Assembly: GCA_039096225.1 (NCBI GenBank)
Contig: JBBPEB010000031.1
Location: 92,501 to 114,926 of the forward strand
DNA length: 22,426 nucleotides
Source: Blastocystis sp. Blastoise
Taxonomy: Eukaryota > Sar > Bigyra > Opalinata > Blastocystidae
Reading direction: 5' to 3'
Shown: positions 159 through 21,633 of the stretch, in pieces
How positions within the stretch are numbered: the first letter of the stretch is position 1
How the letters are laid out: every line of letters begins with the position of its first letter
Notes under the pieces: model-generated
The model's input: the letters and a program-made list of their open reading frames with translations, nothing else
The model's database searches: none
Told to the model about the DNA's origin: nothing
Made by a program: the position numbers and the translations under genes

Positions 159-3062
159 ACAAAATCTGCTGAAGAAGAAGAAGAAGAGGAAGATGGTGAT
201 TCTGTTACTCTTGATCCCCGTGGTAAATTAGTCCTAAAGAAATCGTCTTTAAAGCGTATGAAGAAGGCTATTAGTGAAAAGAAAGAGAAAGAATCAATAG
301 AAACATCTCCTCTTGAGACTGGTCCTGAAACAAAATCAGAAGATAATAATAAAGATAAAGATATAAAGACTACGGAAACTATTGAATCGGGTCCTACTCC
401 CCAAGGGAAGTTGGTAAAAGAAGAAGAAAGAGAAAAAGGTCGTGTTCCATTTTCTGTATATAGTTCGTATATACATGCTGCAGGTGGTTATGCTTTCTTC
501 ATATTTGTTATGTTCTGCTTTATATTCACAGAATTACTTAAAGTAGCCAGTTCCTACTGGCTTACTATTTGGAGTAATAGTAATGGAGGTATTTATTTAT
601 TATTTATTATTATTATTTATTATTATTTATTATTATTTGTTATTTATTATTATTTATTATTTATTATTTATTATTTATTATTATTATTATTATTTATTAT
701 ACTTATTATTATTTATTATTATTATTTATTATTATTTATTATTATTTATTATTTATTATTTATTATTTATTTTAATTAATATATATATAATAAATCAATT
801 TGATTGGCTGTATTTTATAGAGCATCCAATGGGGTTCTATGTTGGTATATATACATTATTAGGTTTTGGTGCTGTTATTCTTTATGTTTGTCGTTATATA
901 TTTACTTATATATTTGGATTAAAAGCTTCTAAAGTATATAATAATAATTATTATTATTATTAAATTATTATTATCTATAGGTTTTACATCAAAATACAAT
1001 TAACACGGTTATTCATCTTCCTATGTCTTTCTTTGATAAAACTCCCATGGGAAGAGTTGTCAATAGATTCTCTAAGGATATGTATATATTTTATAATTAT
1101 TTTAATTTGAATATTTTTTATTTTTATCTACTATTATGTGCACATTAAATAATAATAATTATTATTATTATTCTCTACTATTTATATAATAAATAATAAT
1201 ATATAATTATAGTTATACAATTGATAAGACCTTACCAAATTGTTTTACAGATGTAGGTAATACATTTATGAATGTCGTTAGTACTATTCTAGTTATTGTT
1301 ATTTCTACTCCTATCTTTATTGTTGCTCTTATTCCTATTGCCTTCTATTATATGTATCAACAACAAGTATATGTAAAAACATCAAGAGAAGTTAAACGTA
1401 TTGAATCTATTACTCGTTCTCCTGTGTATATATATAGATATCAAATTAGTTTTTTATTATTTATATATTTATATATATATTATTTAATTTATATATATAG
1501 ATATGCTTTCTTCTCTGAAACTATTGATGGCATGTATTCTATTCGGTATATATATATATTAATAATATTATTATTATTATATTCATAGTGCATATAATTC
1601 TCAATCTATTTTTACTTCTAATAATAATCAAAAATTAACAAATAATCAGAAAGCTTATTTTGTTACTGTTGCTACCAATTGTTGGCTTTCCCTCCGTTTA
1701 GAATTGGTGGGAAATTTAGTTGTTACTGCTGCTTCACTTGCTGCTGTTATTGCAAAGATATATAAAGGAAGTGATTTTGCTGGTATTGCTGCATATATCC
1801 TTTTTATTCTTATTTTCATTTATTTATATATTTATATTATCTATGTATAAATATTTTTAAAATTATATACTATTGTTTCTTTAATATTATTTACTATCTC
1901 TATCATACGCTTTATCCGTTACTCAATCCCTCAATCTCGTTATTCGTCAGTTAACAGAAGTCGAAACACAAATCGTTTCTGTTGAACGTTTACATCAGTA
2001 TATATATTACCATTATTCTAGTATACTATTGTATACTATTCATATTATATATAATATAAAATTAATATAACTATATATATATAGATATTCTGATTTGAAA
2101 GAAGAAGCTCCTTATTCTATTCCCGAGCATATACCTCGTGAAACATGGCCAGAAATGGGTAATATTGATATAGAAGATTTAGTAATGAGATATAGACCCG
2201 AATTAGAGCCTGTATTACATCATTTAAGTTTACATATAAATAGTAAAGAGAAAGTAGGTGTTGTAGGAAGAACAGGAGCAGGTAAAAGTAGTATTTTAAT
2301 GGCATTATTACGATTAGTACCTTTTGAAGAAGGGAAAATACTTATTGATGGTGTTGATATTACTAGTATTGGCGTTGGGGACTTAAGAAAGAAAATCGCA
2401 GTTATTCCTCAAGAACCAATGTTATTTAGTGGTTCTATTCGTTATAATATGGATCCTTTTAATCAATATACAGATGCTCAAATTTGGGATATCTTAGAAG
2501 TATGTATTATTGTGTTTATTGTTATTATGTTTATTATGTTATTATGTTTATTATTATTATTATTTTTTTGTTCATGGTTATAATTACATCTATTATTATT
2601 GTATATATATCTACTATTTCCATAAAAAATATATAATAATAACATATATATATCTATTTGAATAAATAAGTTATAAATATAAATAATAATATCTCTTTTA
2701 GATGGCTCAGATGAAAGATACAATTAAAGATTTACCAGGAATGTTATCTTATGAAATTCAGGAAAGAGGAGAGAATTTCAGTGTTGGTCAACGTCAATTA
2801 TTATGTTTAGCTAGAGCTATATTAAATAACTGTAAGATTATTTTCTTAGATGAAGCTACAGCTTCTATTGATATTGAAACCGATTTATATATTCAAACAA
2901 TTATTAAGAAAGTATTTAAGAACAGTACAGTGATCACCATTGCTCATAGAATTCATACTATATTAGATAGTGATAAGATATTAGTATTAGATGCAGGTCA
3001 AGTTAAAGAATATGATGAACCCAAAAAACTCCTAGATAATCCTAATAGGTATATATATATAA

Positions 3063-3131
<69 letters not shown>

Positions 3132-3221
3132 TATTATATATATTATTATTATTATCATAGTATGTTCTCTGGATTTGTAAATGTTTGGCAAGAAGGTAAA
3201 GAAAAAACTATTAATAACTAA
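159..3221 (+). CDS. ABCC/MRP-type ABC transporter, C-terminal half (TMD2-NBD2), 10 exons, 5' partial
   Basis: Full ABCC/MRP proteins use ATP to export conjugates and other organic anions across plasma or vacuolar membranes; the substrate cannot be told from sequence. Exons are 159-588, 821-933, 981-1081, 1213-1425, 1501-1545, 1589-1794, 1895-1997, 2085-2499, 2702-3048 and 3161-3221. They sum to 2034 nt, every phase agrees, and translation ends at TAA after 677 residues. The start is an acidic and Lys-rich linker ([10 protein letters not shown]), then [10 protein letters not shown] before the second membrane domain. [20 protein letters not shown] is the typical cytoplasmic coupling segment. 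NBD2 shows Walker [10 protein letters not shown] (about residue 462), Q-loop PQEP, signature FSVGQRQ (about 567), Walker [13 protein letters not shown] (about 590) and H-loop TIAHR (about 622), all intact. All introns are GT-AG except 1795-1894, which is AT-AC. NBD1 and TMD1 lie left of the window. Family assignment is secure; subfamily member is not. Confidence 0.93.
589..820 (+). repeat. TTA/TTTA microsatellite filling an ABC-gene intron
   Basis: This 232-nt GT-AG intron is mostly (TTA)n and (TTTATTA)n from about 593 to 770. Its three forward frames read as Leu, Tyr and Ile codons without stops. That produces long false hydrophobic reading frames through the intron. The exon-exon join (G then AG, giving NGEHPMGFY) is in phase. 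Confidence 0.85.
1795..1894 (+). other. Predicted U12-type AT-AC intron in the ABC transporter gene
   Basis: No GT-AG intron can join the flanking exons: between 1795 and 1909 there is no AG in a usable place. Removing 1795-1894 exactly restores the frame, giving [13 protein letters not shown], the expected ABCC membrane-helix sequence. The intron opens with ATATCCTTTT, the minor-spliceosome 5' splice-site consensus. It closes with TTAC and has TTCTTTAAT at 1877-1885, which matches the U12 branch-site consensus TTCCTTAAC at 7 of 9 positions. The branch adenine lies 10-11 nt from the 3' splice site, the normal U12 spacing. Length is 100 nt. Confidence 0.85.
3049..3160 (+). repeat. TTA microsatellite intron near the 3' end of the ABC gene
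   Basis: This GT-AG intron of 112 nt is nearly pure (TTA/ATT)n. It separates the last two coding exons; the join AG then T gives Ser before [12 protein letters not shown] and the stop. Confidence 0.85.
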
Positions 3222-3848: not shown

Positions 3849-4766
3849 ATGTTTGGATTTAAAAAGAGACTAGAGCAGGCAAAGAATCAAGGTAAAGTTA
3901 TAGATGAGGTTAAAATAAGAAATGAAATTAATTCAAAAATGGCATTTCAAAGTTTGCAAAAATGGTTGGCAGACTTTTGTCCATGTAGTACATATGAATT
4001 ACGAGATGTGAACTTAAATGATCCATTTCATTTTATTGTAGTTATTAAACCAGATATGGGATTATATAAAGGAGGAATGTATGTATATATGCTTATATAG
4101 ATATACTGTAATTAATAGTATATAGATATTGTTTTTCTTTCACGTCAAATGATCAGTTTCCATATGAACCACCAAAGGTTATTTGTCAAACGCAAGTAAG
4201 TCTTTTATTTTATATATTTTATTCAAAACGAAAATTCTCTATTATAACTTCATTTTCAAATTGTTTTTGTAGATTCTTCATCCTAATATATCTTTCAAAG
4301 GCAACGTTTGTTTAGATATTATTAGAGAACGTTGGACACCAGCTATTAGTTTAGAAAACATAGCAGTTGGCTTACGTATATTATTAGAAGAACCTGTTGC
4401 TGATGATGCACTTAATATTTGTATGATATTATTATTTTATTTATTATTTATTATTATTATTTTATTTATTATTTATTATTATTATTTTATTTATTATTTA
4501 TTATTATTATTTTATTTATTATTTATTATTATTATTTATTTATTATTATTATTTATTTATATTTTATTTATTGTTTATTCATATTTTATTTATTATTTAT
4601 TATTTATTTATATTTTATTTATTATTTATTATTTATTATAGATGTAAAAGACATTATGGAAAGAGATATACATGAATATGAAACAATGGTGGAACATTCT
4701 TTAAAAGGTGAATCAATAACTATAGACAACAACATTACTTTAAAATTTCCAAAGTTTTTAGAATAA
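3849..4766 (+). CDS. UBC12-like NEDD8-conjugating E2 enzyme
   Basis: E2 enzymes of this type accept NEDD8 as a thioester from the NAE1/UBA3 E1 and pass it to cullins, activating cullin-RING ligases in cytosol and nucleus. Exons 3849-4078, 4126-4195, 4273-4420 and 4642-4766 total 573 nt (190 residues plus TAA) with consistent phases. The joined protein has KPDMGLYKGGIYCFSF, then FPYEPPKV, then HPN (103-105) and GNVCLDII with the catalytic Cys at 113, then RERWTPAISLENI. This follows UBC12 rather than ordinary ubiquitin E2s, and it lacks the insertion after the Cys seen in UBE2F. The protein opens with Met-Phe, matching the hydrophobic N terminus that UBC12 presents to DCN1. The start is the first ATG after stops. 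Unusual points are the CPC motif near residue 49 and EEPVADDALNI in place of the common LEPNPEDPLN. UBC12 is the best call; another UBC-fold E2 is possible. Confidence 0.88.
4421..4641 (+). repeat. TTA/TTTA/TTATTTAT microsatellite intron of the UBC12-like gene
   Basis: This 221-nt GT-AG intron is built almost wholly of ATTATTTATT-type units. It splits codon Tyr (T then AT) between LNI and VKDIMERD. It is readable in several frames and so produces spurious Leu/Ile/Tyr reading frames. Confidence 0.85.
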
Positions 4767-7335: not shown

Positions 7336-8028
7336 ATGAAAAGTTCTTTATTTTGTTTATGTTTAGTATTTGTTGTTCTTGTTTCTGCCCATCGTGGACC
7401 TCAACCTGAAGGAGAATTACCTAATTATGGTCAACGTTTTGCTAATCTTCGTCAATCTAGATATACATTACCTTCTACTGAGATGAATTCTTTTGTTATC
7501 TATCCTACTACTTATGGTGCTGATCCTACTGCTACTGTAGATAGTTCTGATGCCTTTGATTTAGCTGTAAAAGAATTACTTTCTCGTTGTGGAAATTATT
7601 CTATGGCTGATAGTATTAAGGATTGTGGTGGTGCTACTATTGATTTAGCTGGAGGTCAATATTTACTTTCTCGTCCTATAAAATTCCCTCAAATGTATGG
7701 TAATTTCAAGATGACTTCTGGTACTCTTCGTGCTGCTGATAACTTTGCTAAAGGACATTATTTAGTTGAAGTTGGTGCTAAAGAGTGTGGTAATAAACAA
7801 CAATCTTGTAATGAACATGTTGGCTTTAGTCATATGGATTTTGATGCTAGTGTTGTAGCTGATGGTGGTTTATATATTGGTGCTACTATGGGATGCAATG
7901 TTGGTCCTTTTGTATTCTTTGTTGGTTATACTTATGCTGGTGTTTACATTGAAGCACTGGTAGGCACTTTTGAGTTTTTGAAAGTTTTTGATTGGCTGAT
8001 TTTCGTTCAAGACTCATTCAGCCAATAA
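7336..8028 (+). CDS. Secreted pectate-lyase-superfamily (QRT3-like beta-helix) protein, truncated
   Basis: The start is an ATG followed by a clear signal peptide (MKSSLFCLCLVFVVLVSA, cleavage near residue 18). FVIYPTTYGADPTATVDSSD is the usual entry into a right-handed beta-helix of the pectate lyase/exopolygalacturonase superfamily. CGGATIDLAGGQYLLSRPI, GTLRA and GLYIGATMGCNVGP are typical of plant QRT3-like and related microbial proteins. Such proteins act on polysaccharides outside the cell. Homology ends near residue 207 at GVYIEA; family members normally continue through at least as much again of the helix with the catalytic face. The last 23 residues (from about 7958) read into non-coding repeat-like DNA and stop at TAA 8026-8028. 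The frame favours T-ending codons (GGT, GCT, ATT) more than its neighbours. No intron is present in the 620 coding bases. The gene is probably a pseudogene interrupted by an insertion; an intron starting GTAGGC at 7958 is possible but unlike the other donors here. Confidence 0.8.
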   Translation: MKSSLFCLCLVFVVLVSAHRGPQPEGELPNYGQRFANLRQSRYTLPSTEMNSFVIYPTTYGADPTATVDSSDAFDLAVKELLSRCGNYSMADSIKDCGGATIDLAGGQYLLSRPIKFPQMYGNFKMTSGTLRAADNFAKGHYLVEVGAKECGNKQQSCNEHVGFSHMDFDASVVADGGLYIGATMGCNVGPFVFFVGYTYAGVYIEALVGTFEFLKVFDWLIFVQDSFSQ

Positions 8029-8923
8029 GAATTCAATAAAAAAAAGACTTAGGCAAAAAAATGAAAATTTTCACAAAAATTTTAAGACGACTTTTGATTT
8101 AGACTCAAAGACCCTATTTGACATATTTTAACAAAGAATTGACATTAATTTTTGTTTATTGAGGGTCGCACAATATCAAAAATACTTTTCTTTTATTTTA
8201 AGTCGTAATTCCGACAAATAATGGGGTCAATATTTTAAAACCTCTTGTTGTTCTGTTTAAAGTTTAGACCCTCTGAAAGTCACAAGTATGTGTAAAAGTG
8301 AATAAAAAGACCTCTATGGGTCAAAACCAAAATTCAGCCAAAAAGTCAAAAATTTATATTTTTTTTACACTGAAAAATTGAGCCGAGCCTATTTGTATCA
8401 TGGGCAATCAGACCAGAGTTTTCAATTTTTAAAATATTTACGGGAATAACTTTCTTGTTCAAAACTGAGTCTATTTATATTTTATTATATATAAGAGGAC
8501 ACAAGTGTTTTAAAAAAGGTTTTTCATTAAATTTTATTATGACTCAAAGTTCCGCATACAAAAAGTATGTCAAAGCTTATAAATAAAGAGTTTTTTTTCA
8601 GAATCAACTAAAAGTCTTTTTTTAAGTCATTTTTAGAGTTAATTCATCAACGAATGGACGTTTTAAGTTATAATTAATAGTTTTTGGACGAGTTAGTGAA
8701 CAGATCAGAGAGTCAACAAAAATGAGTTATTTTTTTAAAGGTTAAAAGTGTGGGATGCAGTAGTATTGTATAGATGGTGTAGTGTGAAACGTGTCATAAC
8801 TTATAAATATGATAGTGAGTCATAAAAAATTTAAAAAATTAAAGAAAGGTATTTTCATGAAAAATTTTGTATTTCACTTGAACATTTGAATTTATTAGTG
8901 AATTTATAATTATTTTTATTTTA
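7958..8923. mobile_element. Non-coding insert interrupting the pectate-lyase-like gene
   Basis: Coding homology stops abruptly at about 7957 and about 950 bases follow with no frame of substance. Near its left edge is a hairpin, ATTGGCTGA (7991-7999) with TCAGCCAAT (8018-8026). The words TTTTTGATTGGCT and AGGCAAAAAAAT found here recur near 17300-17545 in the insert that splits the transposase gene. No target duplication or terminal repeat could be fixed by eye because the downstream half of the host gene was not found. Confidence 0.4.
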
Positions 8924-9226
8924 TTGTCTCTAAGAGGAATTAGAGCCTCTCACAGTGTTTATGTATGTTTAGAAGACAAGAATGTATTGTGTCAGTATTT
9001 ATTTATTAAATATTTTATATTTATTTTCATAATTCTTTTAGGTTTTCCATTCTGGAGTCCCTCTTCGTATCAGACTGTCTCCTTGGTCAACCTCAAAAAT
9101 TTAATCAACAGAGTTGCTGCTACTTTTGTTTAACAAGGTATTTTTTTACATTTTGTTTTTAATTCTTTTAGATTATTTCCTTGTTCTTATTCCAACGCTT
9201 TCAAGAAACAACTTGCCATGCTATAA
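8924..9226 (+). CDS. Possible three-exon reading frame, unrecognised, 5' incomplete
   Basis: The segments 8924-8994, 9042-9137 and 9172-9226 join in frame across two GT-AG introns (47 and 34 nt). Both introns begin GTATTT and end with the same AATTCTTTTAG. The joined product reads LSLRGIRASHSVYVCLEDKN through FSILESLFVSDCLLGQP to QLAMLstop, Cys- and Leu-rich, about 74 residues. No Met precedes it in frame (a TGA lies at 8879), so a real gene would need an upstream exon. No family is recognised. It does not look like the missing end of the pectate-lyase-like protein. The matched introns and the single frame open across all three parts are the only support; it may be a gene remnant. Confidence 0.35.
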
Positions 9227-15489: not shown

Positions 15490-15619
15490 TTATATTGAAA
15501 TTTTATTACGAGTCATAAATACAGTATTTGTGATAACTGTATTAGAAGTCACAACCCTTTTATTATTTCCTTCTTCTCCTTCCTTTTCCTATATACGTAA
15601 ATAATTGTTATATTAAAGA

Positions 15620-15679
<60 letters not shown>

Positions 15680-17285
15680 TTTCTGGAACATATGAGTCAT
15701 CAACTTTTGTTTGCCTATATTCATGAATATCTGCAATAATCAAATTATCTGGTTCAATATTACATATAGATATAAATTTTGGAAAATCTCGTTTTCTTTT
15801 TGATAAAATTTCATTTGAATCATTAATAATATAGAATAATCCTGTATTAGATATTCGTACTTCTGGATATTCATATTGTTTTATTATTACCAACGATCCT
15901 ATTTGAATGTAGCAAAGTGATTTAATTAAATGTACCTTTCTTTCTCTTCCTTGATCATGTGTAAAATACATTATGTATGAGTTATCAGTGGTTTCAATCC
16001 CTTCATCTATATCTGAACAAGTAAATATAACTGAATCGTTTATTAATACTTCTGAATAAAATGTCATAGTTATTCTTCTTAAATTATTAATTATAATATT
16101 ACATATGTTTGAATCAGTTAGAATATCATAAGGAACAATATCATTTTTATTTACATTATGGAACAGTATTTCTTTGAGTGACTCATCATTTGATGCTAGA
16201 ATTATGTTTATTATTTCTTTCATGTCATTATCAGATAAGTCAATTCTTTCTGATCCTCGAATTCCTTTAACGGTACTAATTTTGTTTCTATTAACTATAA
16301 TGGTATTGTAACTTTCACATATTAATTCCTTATTTGATATATCATCGTTAATAATAGATTCCTCTTCATTATATAGTTCTTTATTAATCTCTAGTTGCGT
16401 TTCATCAGTTATATCATCACTTATATTAGTTGTTGTATTCATATCTGCTACTTCTCTTTCTATAATACGTCTAATAGACGATTCATTAAAATTCTTTCTT
16501 CCAAAAGAAATTCTTTTAAGAAAAGAATAAAACCTTTCTGATTGATAGGTAGATCCAGAGAAGATAGAACCAGAGTTTATTATTGAATAGTAAAGATGTT
16601 GTACAAGATGAATTTGAGTATTTAGAAGCTCCTTTGGTATCAAAAGCTCACACAAAAAGCAAAATATATTACATTGATCTCTAAACACTTCCAATAAATG
16701 TTTTGATGTATTACCATGATATAGGTATACTTGACGTATTATTGTAGCTAAAGGGTCAATAAGTACAACAAGTGGTGAATCACTGGAATTAAAATCTAAA
16801 GTTATTAATGGAAGAATACAAGAAGTGAAGAAAATCCTTGTGTGAGAGGACATGTTCCAAAATTTTTTTTCATTTAGAATATACCTAAACTCATATTCAT
16901 TATCATTATATAGTGTATTAATGGCTAAAATCCTGGAGTTAAGAATTGATATATTTTCATCTTTTAAACAAAATGTACTAAGAATTGATTCAGTGTTTAA
17001 TGCTTTATTTTTAGATATCTTAGAAGTATAATCAGCTACATTGTAATGAAATAATAAATTTAAAATTAGAGTACAAATATTATTGAATAGATGCATGGGA
17101 TCTAGTAAATAACTAGTAGATGCATCAAAGTATGCCAATGATTCGAAGATACCAGGATTATGTTTAATACCTAAGAAAGATCCATTTTCAGATGAATTGC
17201 ATCTATTCATATTTATTGTTTCTTGTGTTCTCTGTGAATATTCCTTTTCTTCAAAAGCATCATAGTATATACATTCATTAGGAAA
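15490..17285 (-). pseudogene. Transposase, C-terminal half (DPMHL block)
   Basis: This is the back half of a 'transposase domain-containing protein' that would cut and paste its own DNA. The frame is open from just after a TGA at 17286-17288 to a donor at 15677. A GT-AG intron filled with (TA)n (15589-15677) follows, then a last exon 15490-15588 that ends in TAA in frame. The ATG at 17210 is probably internal: 25 codons upstream are open and end in SQRTQETIN, which suits the family. GSFLGIKHNPGIFESLAYF followed by DPMHLFNN (Asp about residue 62 of the block) is the family's diagnostic run; the Asp-Pro-Met-His is likely part of the catalytic region (inference). The later part is less conserved and contains an acidic, Asp/Glu-rich stretch. 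Both splice junctions suggest the block was once expressed. Without its N-terminal half it cannot make a complete enzyme. Confidence 0.75.
15619..15677. repeat. (TA)n run in the last transposase intron
   Basis: About 57 bases of pure TA dinucleotide repeat just inside the 5' splice site of the minus-strand intron. Read through, it gives a false Tyr-Ile repeat tail to the upstream exon. Confidence 0.9.
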
Positions 17286-19919: not shown

Positions 19920-19963
19920 GCCGCGGTCCGGGGCCGTTAGGCACTGGACCTGCGGCGTGACCC
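19920..19963. other. GC-rich hairpin cluster at the transposase break
   Basis: About three quarters of these 44 bases are G or C, in a window that is otherwise strongly AT-rich. GCCGCGGTCC (19920-19929) pairs with GGACCTGCGGC (19946-19956) with a single bulged T, and the loop holds a smaller GCC-GTTA-GGC stem. It abuts the transposase coding sequence and supplies its last residues (SRRRSSA) and an artificial stop. GC clusters of this kind are known mobile units in fungal mitochondrial DNA; whether this is one is inference. A chimeric assembly join or adaptor remnant must also be considered. Confidence 0.6.
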
Positions 19964-21633
19964 TAGTTTGTCAATAATAGTATTAGTAGTAACAGGTAAA
20001 TCATCTATAAGAGGAGTAGTTGGAGATATATTAGAATCATTTATGGCTACAAAAACAGAAGGATATAGAATTTCATTTATCTTTTTCTTATCTTCTGTTA
20101 AATGAATATATTTCTTTATACTCTTATAAGCACATTTTATACCTTCGTGAAAGCCTTCGTTCTTTCTATTCCAAGAAATCTCACAATATCTACATGGGAA
20201 TGTTGAAGAGGGTCCAGTAAAGCTTCCAACGCTTGTAATAGCCATACAATCCCCATAAACATTTAGTAGAACTGCTACAACTCGCCTTTTTTCAATTCGT
20301 TCATTAATAAATACATCCATTTCAATTCCAGATGATAGAAGAATTAACTCTTTCATAAGTAATACAAGAACAGTATTAGATAGCGATTCTTTTGTTATAC
20401 AATATGTCCAGAATACTCTCTGATCATGTAATCTAGTATTATTATAATTTAATAATTTAAGAAGAATAGGAAAAGATGATTGATTAGTATCAGAGATAGG
20501 ATTTGAAAAGACACAAATTCCATCACAAGTTAAATCAAAAAATAAGAAAATATCACCATTATTAATAACTTTATTCATATATTTGCGATAATTTTGTCCT
20601 AACATATATTCTGGAATTGTACTTGGCAAATGTTCTATTGGCATCGATAAATAGTATTGAATTTCCTCCTTCTTGTAATAACTAATATCTTGTATTAATG
20701 GTTTAGAAGACATCAAGTAACGTATACGTGGGATTAAAGGTATAACAGACACTTTTATGCCTTTATATAAATAAAATATTAATCAGAATAATGAAAGTTA
20801 ATTTATATTCACATATAAATAGTGTATCATATACTATAAGAATATATATAAAACGTTATATATAATAAATAATATCTTGTATTGTCATATATTATATGAA
20901 GAAAAGAAAATAAATATAATAGAAAGAATAATAATAAAAAGAATAATAGTAGTATAAATAGAAATGAATTATATATATATATATATACTTTTGCTTTCAC
21001 TACATTCCTCGTTTTTACATTGAGTCTTTTCTTTATTAAGTAGATTTCTTCCTCCATTAAATGATACTAGTTCTTTACAATTATCACATATGTAGATATT
21101 TTTATGTAGTGGAGTTTCAGAATGGCAAGAACAGTATTTCCGTATTATATCCTGCCCATTCTTTGGAACAAAAAGTAATTCATGTTCAGGAACCAAAAGT
21201 TTTATGACATCATTTATTAGTTCGTATAGTTTCTTAATCTTCTCGGTACTTATTTTAAGCTGACACCAACAATCATAAACGAAATCTTCAATTCTTGAAT
21301 TATCATTTATATTATTTTTTGATGATGGCTTCTAAATAGTTTAAAGAGAGTTATATGAAATAAAAATAGACGAAATAAAATATTATAATGTTTTTAAAAT
21401 ACCGAATTTATAATTTTTTCCAAAAATACATCAGATATTTGTTTGGTACTGTTTGAGTTCACGTCTTCATCTGAATCTAATTCTTCCATCAAGTGAGAAG
21501 TTTCGATTATTATATTCTCTTCATGAAGAGAGACATGATCAGTTGAAATTGCTAAATATATAAATAAAATTAAAAGTCTCTTACATCTACGTTTTGATGG
21601 AAACCCAGGAAGATCATATTGACGTCCTGTCAT
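19937..21633 (-). pseudogene. Transposase, N-terminal half with zinc-binding region
   Basis: The front half of the split transposase. Exons (minus) are 21585-21633, 21403-21551, 20989-21331 and 20751 down to about 19966; introns are 33, 71 and 237 nt, all GT-AG, and phases agree. The joined protein starts MTGRQYDLPGFPSKRR, has an acidic Asp/Glu patch, then a zinc-ribbon-like set: C133, C135, H136, C148, C151, C171 and C176. Exon four gives MSVIPLIPRIRYLMSSKPL, then FFDLTCDGICVF, LNVYGDCMAI and FTGPSSTFPCRYC. These are the conserved order of this transposase family, with a DG Asp and a GD Asp as likely catalytic-core residues (inference). Coding homology ends near 19966 at TTNTIIDKL. The last residues before the stop at 19937 come from the GC hairpin. 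The gene is intact up to the break, so it may have been active recently. Confidence 0.75.

Follow-up and report, generated by a model that had tools for sequence, protein, structure and literature searches.

We asked whether, in the gut protist Blastocystis sp. Blastoise (Stramenopiles, Bigyra, Opalinata), a gene for an ABCC transporter is interrupted by a minor-type intron, and whether the genome holds the RNAs that would remove it. The window, which is the whole stretch of DNA analysed (22,426 nucleotides), contains the C-terminal half of this gene. As judged from the DNA sequence, positions 1795-1894 are very probably a minor (U12-type) AT-AC spliceosomal intron, as the preliminary description of the locus had claimed.

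The ABCC gene and its sixth intron

The gene was reconstructed with nine introns. The sixth had AT-AC ends, and the other eight were GT-AG introns of 43-232 nt, set by eye, which started with GTATAT, GTATTT or GTATGT. In the gene fragment, GC content was 0.32 in exons and 0.08 in introns. The spliced product matched ABC_membrane with 139 bits and ABC_tran with 102 bits, and its closest solved relatives were MRP1, the best match, and ABCC2. With both domains present and ABCC proteins as the best match, the earlier identification as an ABCC transporter was supported.

Table 1. Features of the ABCC gene fragment in the window, and minor snRNA genes and candidates located in the genome (C numbers denote contigs)
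Feature	Position	Strand	Remarks
ABCC/MRP-type transporter gene, C-terminal half	159..3221	+	ten exons, stop included
ABCC exons 1-5	159-588, 821-933, 981-1081, 1213-1425, 1501-1545	+	
ABCC exons 6-10	1589-1794, 1895-1997, 2085-2499, 2702-3048, 3161-3221	+	
Probable AT-AC U12-type intron	1795..1894	+	phase 1, 100 nt; homology of the join, frame and stop analysis
Putative U12-type 5' splice site ATATCCTTTT	1795..1804	+	sequence; pairing with own U11 5' end
Putative branch site TTTCTTTAAT	1876..1885	+	branch A 1883 or 1884; sequence, pairing with own U12
Putative 3' splice site TTAC	1891..1894	+	sequence
Upstream ABCC exon	1589..1794	+	ends ...GCT GCA T; spliced translation
Downstream ABCC exon	1895..1997	+	begins TA TCT CTA...; spliced translation, gap-free homologues
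U11	C4:1684165-1684293	-	62.9 bits, Rfam cut-off 39
U6atac	C21:544821-544937 (G000; L010 1501-1617)	-	63.8 bits, Rfam cut-off 33; T run at end
U12	C24:844725-844868	+	46.8 bits, below Rfam cut-off 53; E 6e-7
U4atac candidate	C8:151033-151167	-	29.7 bits, below Rfam cut-off 53; E 0.045

Removal of 1795-1894 gave an open frame of 677 aa, and retention led to a stop, in agreement with the restored frame noted before. The join was then compared with all others in the region. In-frame joins were enumerated with donors at 1641-1900, acceptors at 1791-1990 and an intron length of at least 35, which gave 78 joins (14 GT-AG, 10 GC-AG and 54 AT-AC). For scoring, a profile was built from 60 of 120 listed homologues, namely the first 60 in the list, which had been sought among proteins 0.55 to 1.75 times as long as the query. 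The 1795-1894 join ranked first with 950.6 bits and the runner-up, also AT-AC, had 935.1 bits, while the top GT-AG join (1845-1950) reached 902.7 bits and the top GC-AG join 881.4 bits. The preliminary description had stated that the exon join fails with any GT-AG choice. This was wrong, as 14 of the 78 in-frame joins were GT-AG, though with a clearly poorer fit.

The GT-AG join at 1845-1950 would imply a different gene structure. In this case, 50 nt of 1795-1894 would be coding, with hydrophobic residues, and 1895-1950 would be intronic. The frame is kept and a protein of 675 aa results. However, this join fell 48 bits below 1795-1894 against the 60 homologues, and it swapped a conserved stretch of 19 residues for AT-rich sequence. 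It would also make the full set of U12 signals at 1795-1894 a coincidence; the combination of ATATCCTTT, a branch site of at least 7/9 and a well-spaced AC occurred in 1 of 20,000 dinucleotide-preserving shuffles of 1781-1900. We consider this structure very improbable. The alignments favoured the AT-AC join: none of the 60 homologues had a gap around 1794/1895, and in the alignment with MRP1 from a PDB sequence search the join was gap-free, the nearest gap being one of 3 residues roughly ten residues upstream.

The signals of the AT-AC intron were those given in the preliminary description, and each was found in the sequence: an exact 5' site, a 7/9 branch site, a spacing of 10-11 nt and a TTAC acceptor. 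The 5' site consensus RTATCCTTT was satisfied by ATATCCTTTT at the intron start. Inside TTTCTTTAAT, TTCTTTAAT matched the branch consensus TTCCTTAAC at 7 of 9 positions, and the final C of the intron lay 10-11 nt 3' of the candidate branch adenosines 1884/1883. In computed duplexes, the 5' end of the organism's own U11 formed 6 consecutive pairs with ATATCCTTTT (-4.7 kcal/mol), and its own U12 formed 8 consecutive pairs with TTTCTTTAAT, with the following A unpaired (-5.3 kcal/mol).

AT-AC ends alone are no proof of the U12 type (PMC3584512, in the part available), and such an intron might be excised by the major (U2) spliceosome. This is hardly to be expected here, since ATATCCTTTT at the 5' end and the branch site both belong to the U12 type, the major introns of the same gene have the GT starts listed above, and minor snRNAs are present in the genome. 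Even less probable is a pseudogene or an assembly artefact that would lack functional splicing. Splicing was deduced here from DNA and the gene is represented by its C-terminal half, which would leave room for such a case. However, each of the ten exons kept an open frame, the exons were conserved across the two ABC domains, and the same intron type was found in other genes of the genome.

For the U12-type intron, a course of splicing may be proposed, in which the order of events in ABCC is inferred and the later steps follow what is established for the minor spliceosome in general (PMC3584512, in the part available). U11 would bind ATATCCTTTT by pairing, and U12 would do so at TTTCTTTAAT. The U4atac/U6atac.U5 tri-snRNP would join next, and U6atac would then take the place of U11 at the 5' site. 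The intron would finally be excised and T1794 joined to T1895.

Other genes were seen in the window. Positions 3849-4766 (+) held a gene for a ubiquitin-conjugating enzyme, interrupted by three GT-AG introns (UQ_con 83.8 bits; the by-eye splice was seven residues short). Positions 7336-9060 (+) held a pectate-lyase-like protein with a signal-like start, which matched PF12708 with 22.3 bits against a cut-off of 27; its frame stopped at 8028, and it may be interrupted, or else spliced across a distance of about 1 kb. Open frames of 553 aa and 271 aa lay at 15549-17210 (-) and 19937-20752 (-), respectively.

Minor-spliceosome RNAs and the U6atac element

The preliminary description had concluded from the intron that the organism keeps U11, U12, U4atac and U6atac. 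A survey of the genome (33.3 Mb, 34 contigs) located all four, U4atac by a weak Rfam score together with pairing with the organism's own U6atac. U11 and U6atac scored above their Rfam cut-offs, and U12 scored below, with its branch-pairing element GAGUAAGGAAA intact. In the case of U6atac, the core GAGAGAAGGUUAGCA, stems I and II with U4atac, the 3' stem-loop and the terminal T-run were all present.

U4atac was the weakest match. The Rfam model gave nothing in the genome at E<=0.001 and a single place at E<=10, a level at which 11 of 14 control prokaryote genomes gave matches too. The 5' end of this candidate formed at least 13 consecutive pairs with the organism's own U6atac (-29.5 kcal/mol), and none of 5000 mononucleotide shuffles was as strong. 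When 31,888 other 25-nt segments from the loci under study were paired with U6atac, only U6atac's own locus outpaired the candidate, and the next, a chance segment at L041, came close with -28.2 kcal/mol. In the candidate, stem I had 8 bp, the 5' stem-loop was foldable, and an Sm-like AGUUUUUGA was present. We took C8:151033-151167 as the probable U4atac on the weak Rfam score and the strong pairing with U6atac. A separate pattern search for U4atac gave 2 places versus 2 in the backward control, and neither of the loci to which it pointed, L012 and L013, showed U4atac.

Among the seven minor-spliceosome proteins named in PMC5608401 (in the part available), PDCD7/U11-59K alone was sought. PDCD7 had been suggested before as a protein to look for, and a homologue was found with 25.3 bits on one exon and 48.0 bits over two joined exons, against a cut-off of 27.

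The U6atac sequence differed from the Rfam consensus in the region that contacts the 5' splice site. Positions 12-14 were GCC versus AAG in the consensus. Positions 11-16 read AGCCGA, and the AAAGGA element, which pairs with UCCUUU of the 5' site, was absent. Computation showed that AAAGGA of the consensus (11-16) can pair with UCCUUU at +4 to +9. In the same canonical register, the organism's own U6atac can pair with +4, +5, +8 (by G-U) and +9; because of GCC at 12-14, +6 and +7 of ATATCCTT cannot be paired. The best duplex of the own U6atac with the 5' site was a shifted one of -2.9 kcal/mol, compared with -7.1 kcal/mol for the consensus. One U6atac copy was found, with 46 of 946 first-look candidates scored, and a second, canonical copy in the genome is unlikely.

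The 5' site itself was examined at these two positions. The ABCC intron, whose join was established by homology and picked by no motif search, had C6 and U7, and so did the intron in the glycyl-tRNA synthetase gene (GlyRS, below). The motif searches all demanded ATATCCTT, so the bases at +6 and +7 were preset in the introns that they gave.

Pairing at this place has been probed in CHO cells by compensatory mutation of U6atac 14/15 and intron positions 5/6, and the helix was reported to matter (PMC4980772, in the part available). The human U6atac/P120 (NOL1) intron system of that work shares CC at +5/+6 with the present one, and there G14 and G15 of human U6atac form the pairs (same source). 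In contrast to human U6atac, the own U6atac retains G15 and has C14 and C13, and +6/+7 are left unpaired in the canonical register. A tentative reading, less probable than not, is that the minor spliceosome would excise AT-AC introns despite a U6atac without the two central pairs (to +6/+7) of this helix; recognition would then go via U11 and proteins, with U6atac providing outer pairs only. The altered element may be a new point. In the passages of the literature covered, no statement on an alteration of Blastocystis U6atac was found. For comparison with other eukaryotes, the U6atac core pattern was searched in genome_contigs and viral_contigs and gave 0 matches.

Further AT-AC introns in the genome

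Two further AT-AC joins were supported by homology, giving three with ABCC. The GlyRS gene had an AT-AC intron of 105 nt in phase 0, and the join was gap-free against the solved GlyRS 2q5h, which we take to be human GlyRS. Over 682 aa, the product spliced from C5 showed 100% identity with the deposited protein WA158_005788, and the AT-AC intron is also used in the deposited gene model. Two GlyRS copies were found, L046 (C5) and L047 (C22), and both carried this phase-0 AT-AC intron. Pfam gave no synthetase domain in the GlyRS piece, and its identity came from the solved GlyRS and WA158_005788. The third join was in an amino-acid transporter, where an Aa_trans match of 58.3 bits spanned the AT-AC intron.

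Genome-wide, the pattern ATATCCTTN{20,50}TTYTTTAAY gave 88 places versus 19 in the backward control, of which 39 belonged to seven multi-copy families (by eye) and are not independent, so that the excess overstates the number of independent introns. The pattern ATATCCTTN{50,80}TTYCTTNAAY gave 34 places versus 22 in the control. We analysed 60 loci on both strands, namely 30 of the 34 places with the 50-80 gap and 30 of the 88 with the 20-50 gap. A branch site with an AC or AG arrangement was found in 48 loci and not in the other 12. Among the 48, 30 arrangements had one flank that was open over less than 100 nt. Both flanks were open over at least 100 nt in 18 rows, or 17 places (L019 is the same as L020), including the ABCC intron. 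All 18 terminated in AC, with AG permitted, and carried TTTCTTTAAT, in nine genes or gene families; here the donor was fixed by the search pattern and the branch site was required in a looser form. With permuted donor words, 0 of 147 sites had both flanks open over 100 nt, compared with 20 of 88 for ATATCCTT; this control was unfair because the loci had been preselected by ATATCCTT with a branch site.

Several other loci were noted in these searches. Long open frames on both sides were seen at L041 and in the L039 and L074 families. Pfam gave no match for L041, L039 and L074 and a weak match only for L023 (E 0.063), and among solved structures no credible relative of L041 was found (E 0.59). 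AT-AC-like introns were seen in two multi-copy families, one at L028, L036, L039, L043, L075 and L079 and the other at L070, L073, L074, L076 and L080; one family encodes a cysteine-rich protein and one is unknown. The introns lay at a matching place in the family copies, which suggested that minor introns were multiplied with their genes. L017, L026, L031, L040, L044 and others were unsupported candidates and were left out of the evidence. In addition, ATATCCTTTACTACAT...TTCTTTAAT was repeated at L065, L068 and nine further places among the 88, and the flanks of L068 were very AT-rich and had no long open frames; this element may be a repeat and not an intron.

GT-AG minor introns were also searched. 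The first pattern gave 0 places versus 3 in the control, and it was badly chosen, as it demanded C at a position that is T in the local branch site. With GTATCCTTN{40,70}TTYTTTAAY, 6 places versus 5 in the control were obtained, which was no excess; the gap here was 40-70, compared with 20-50 for the AT pattern. The data fit AT-AC being the main minor-intron subtype in this genome, as in Blastocystis subtype ST1.

Minor introns within Blastocystis

The preliminary description had placed the gene in a fungal setting, in which retention of minor introns would be surprising, and the AT-rich introns also pointed to a fungus. The host is no fungus, and a fungal origin is out, as the spliced GlyRS was the Blastocystis sp. 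Blastoise protein with 100% identity. Early-diverging fungi (Rhizophagus, Basidiobolus, Neocallimastigomycetes and Spizellomyces) likewise have U12-type 5' and branch sites and have kept minor snRNAs (PMC10639083, in the part available), but the Blastoise genome is that of a stramenopile, and the fungal minor introns themselves were already published in the same source. The surprise at retention is also largely gone, since minor introns and the four snRNAs of Blastocystis have been published (PMC5608401 and PMC10639083, in the parts available).

In ST1, 346 U12-type introns, all four snRNAs and the complete set of seven U12-specific proteins were reported (Gentekaki et al. 2017, PMC5608401, in the part available), and 77% of the minor introns were AT-AC (Larue and Roy 2023, PMC10639083, in the part available). 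According to the available parts of these two papers, ST1 and ST7 resemble Blastoise in genus and AT-AC prevalence, and also in having all four minor snRNAs as well as the 59K protein. As AT-AC minor introns and the four snRNAs have been published for Blastocystis since 2017, the ABCC intron adds a member to a known intron type. No mention of 'Blastoise' together with Blastocystis was found in the literature searched.

Intron length differed within the genus. Minor introns of ST1 have a mean of just under 42 bp and a median of 39 bp, and a length of 30 bp is found in more than half of all introns of ST1 (PMC5608401 and PMC10639083, in the parts available). In contrast to these minor introns of about 40 bp, those of Blastoise measured 100 nt in ABCC and 105 nt in GlyRS, and the major introns of ABCC measured 43-232 nt. 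Blastoise would thus be a Blastocystis with expanded minor introns, by its two best cases, compared with those of about 40 bp described, and this makes a change of intron length comparable within one genus. In the case of U6atac, the tentative reading would, if true, mean that nature has departed here from a pairing with the 5' site that has been shown to be important in mammalian cells. If the observation on U6atac stands, the extent to which a working minor spliceosome depends on the helix between U6atac and the 5' site would become testable.
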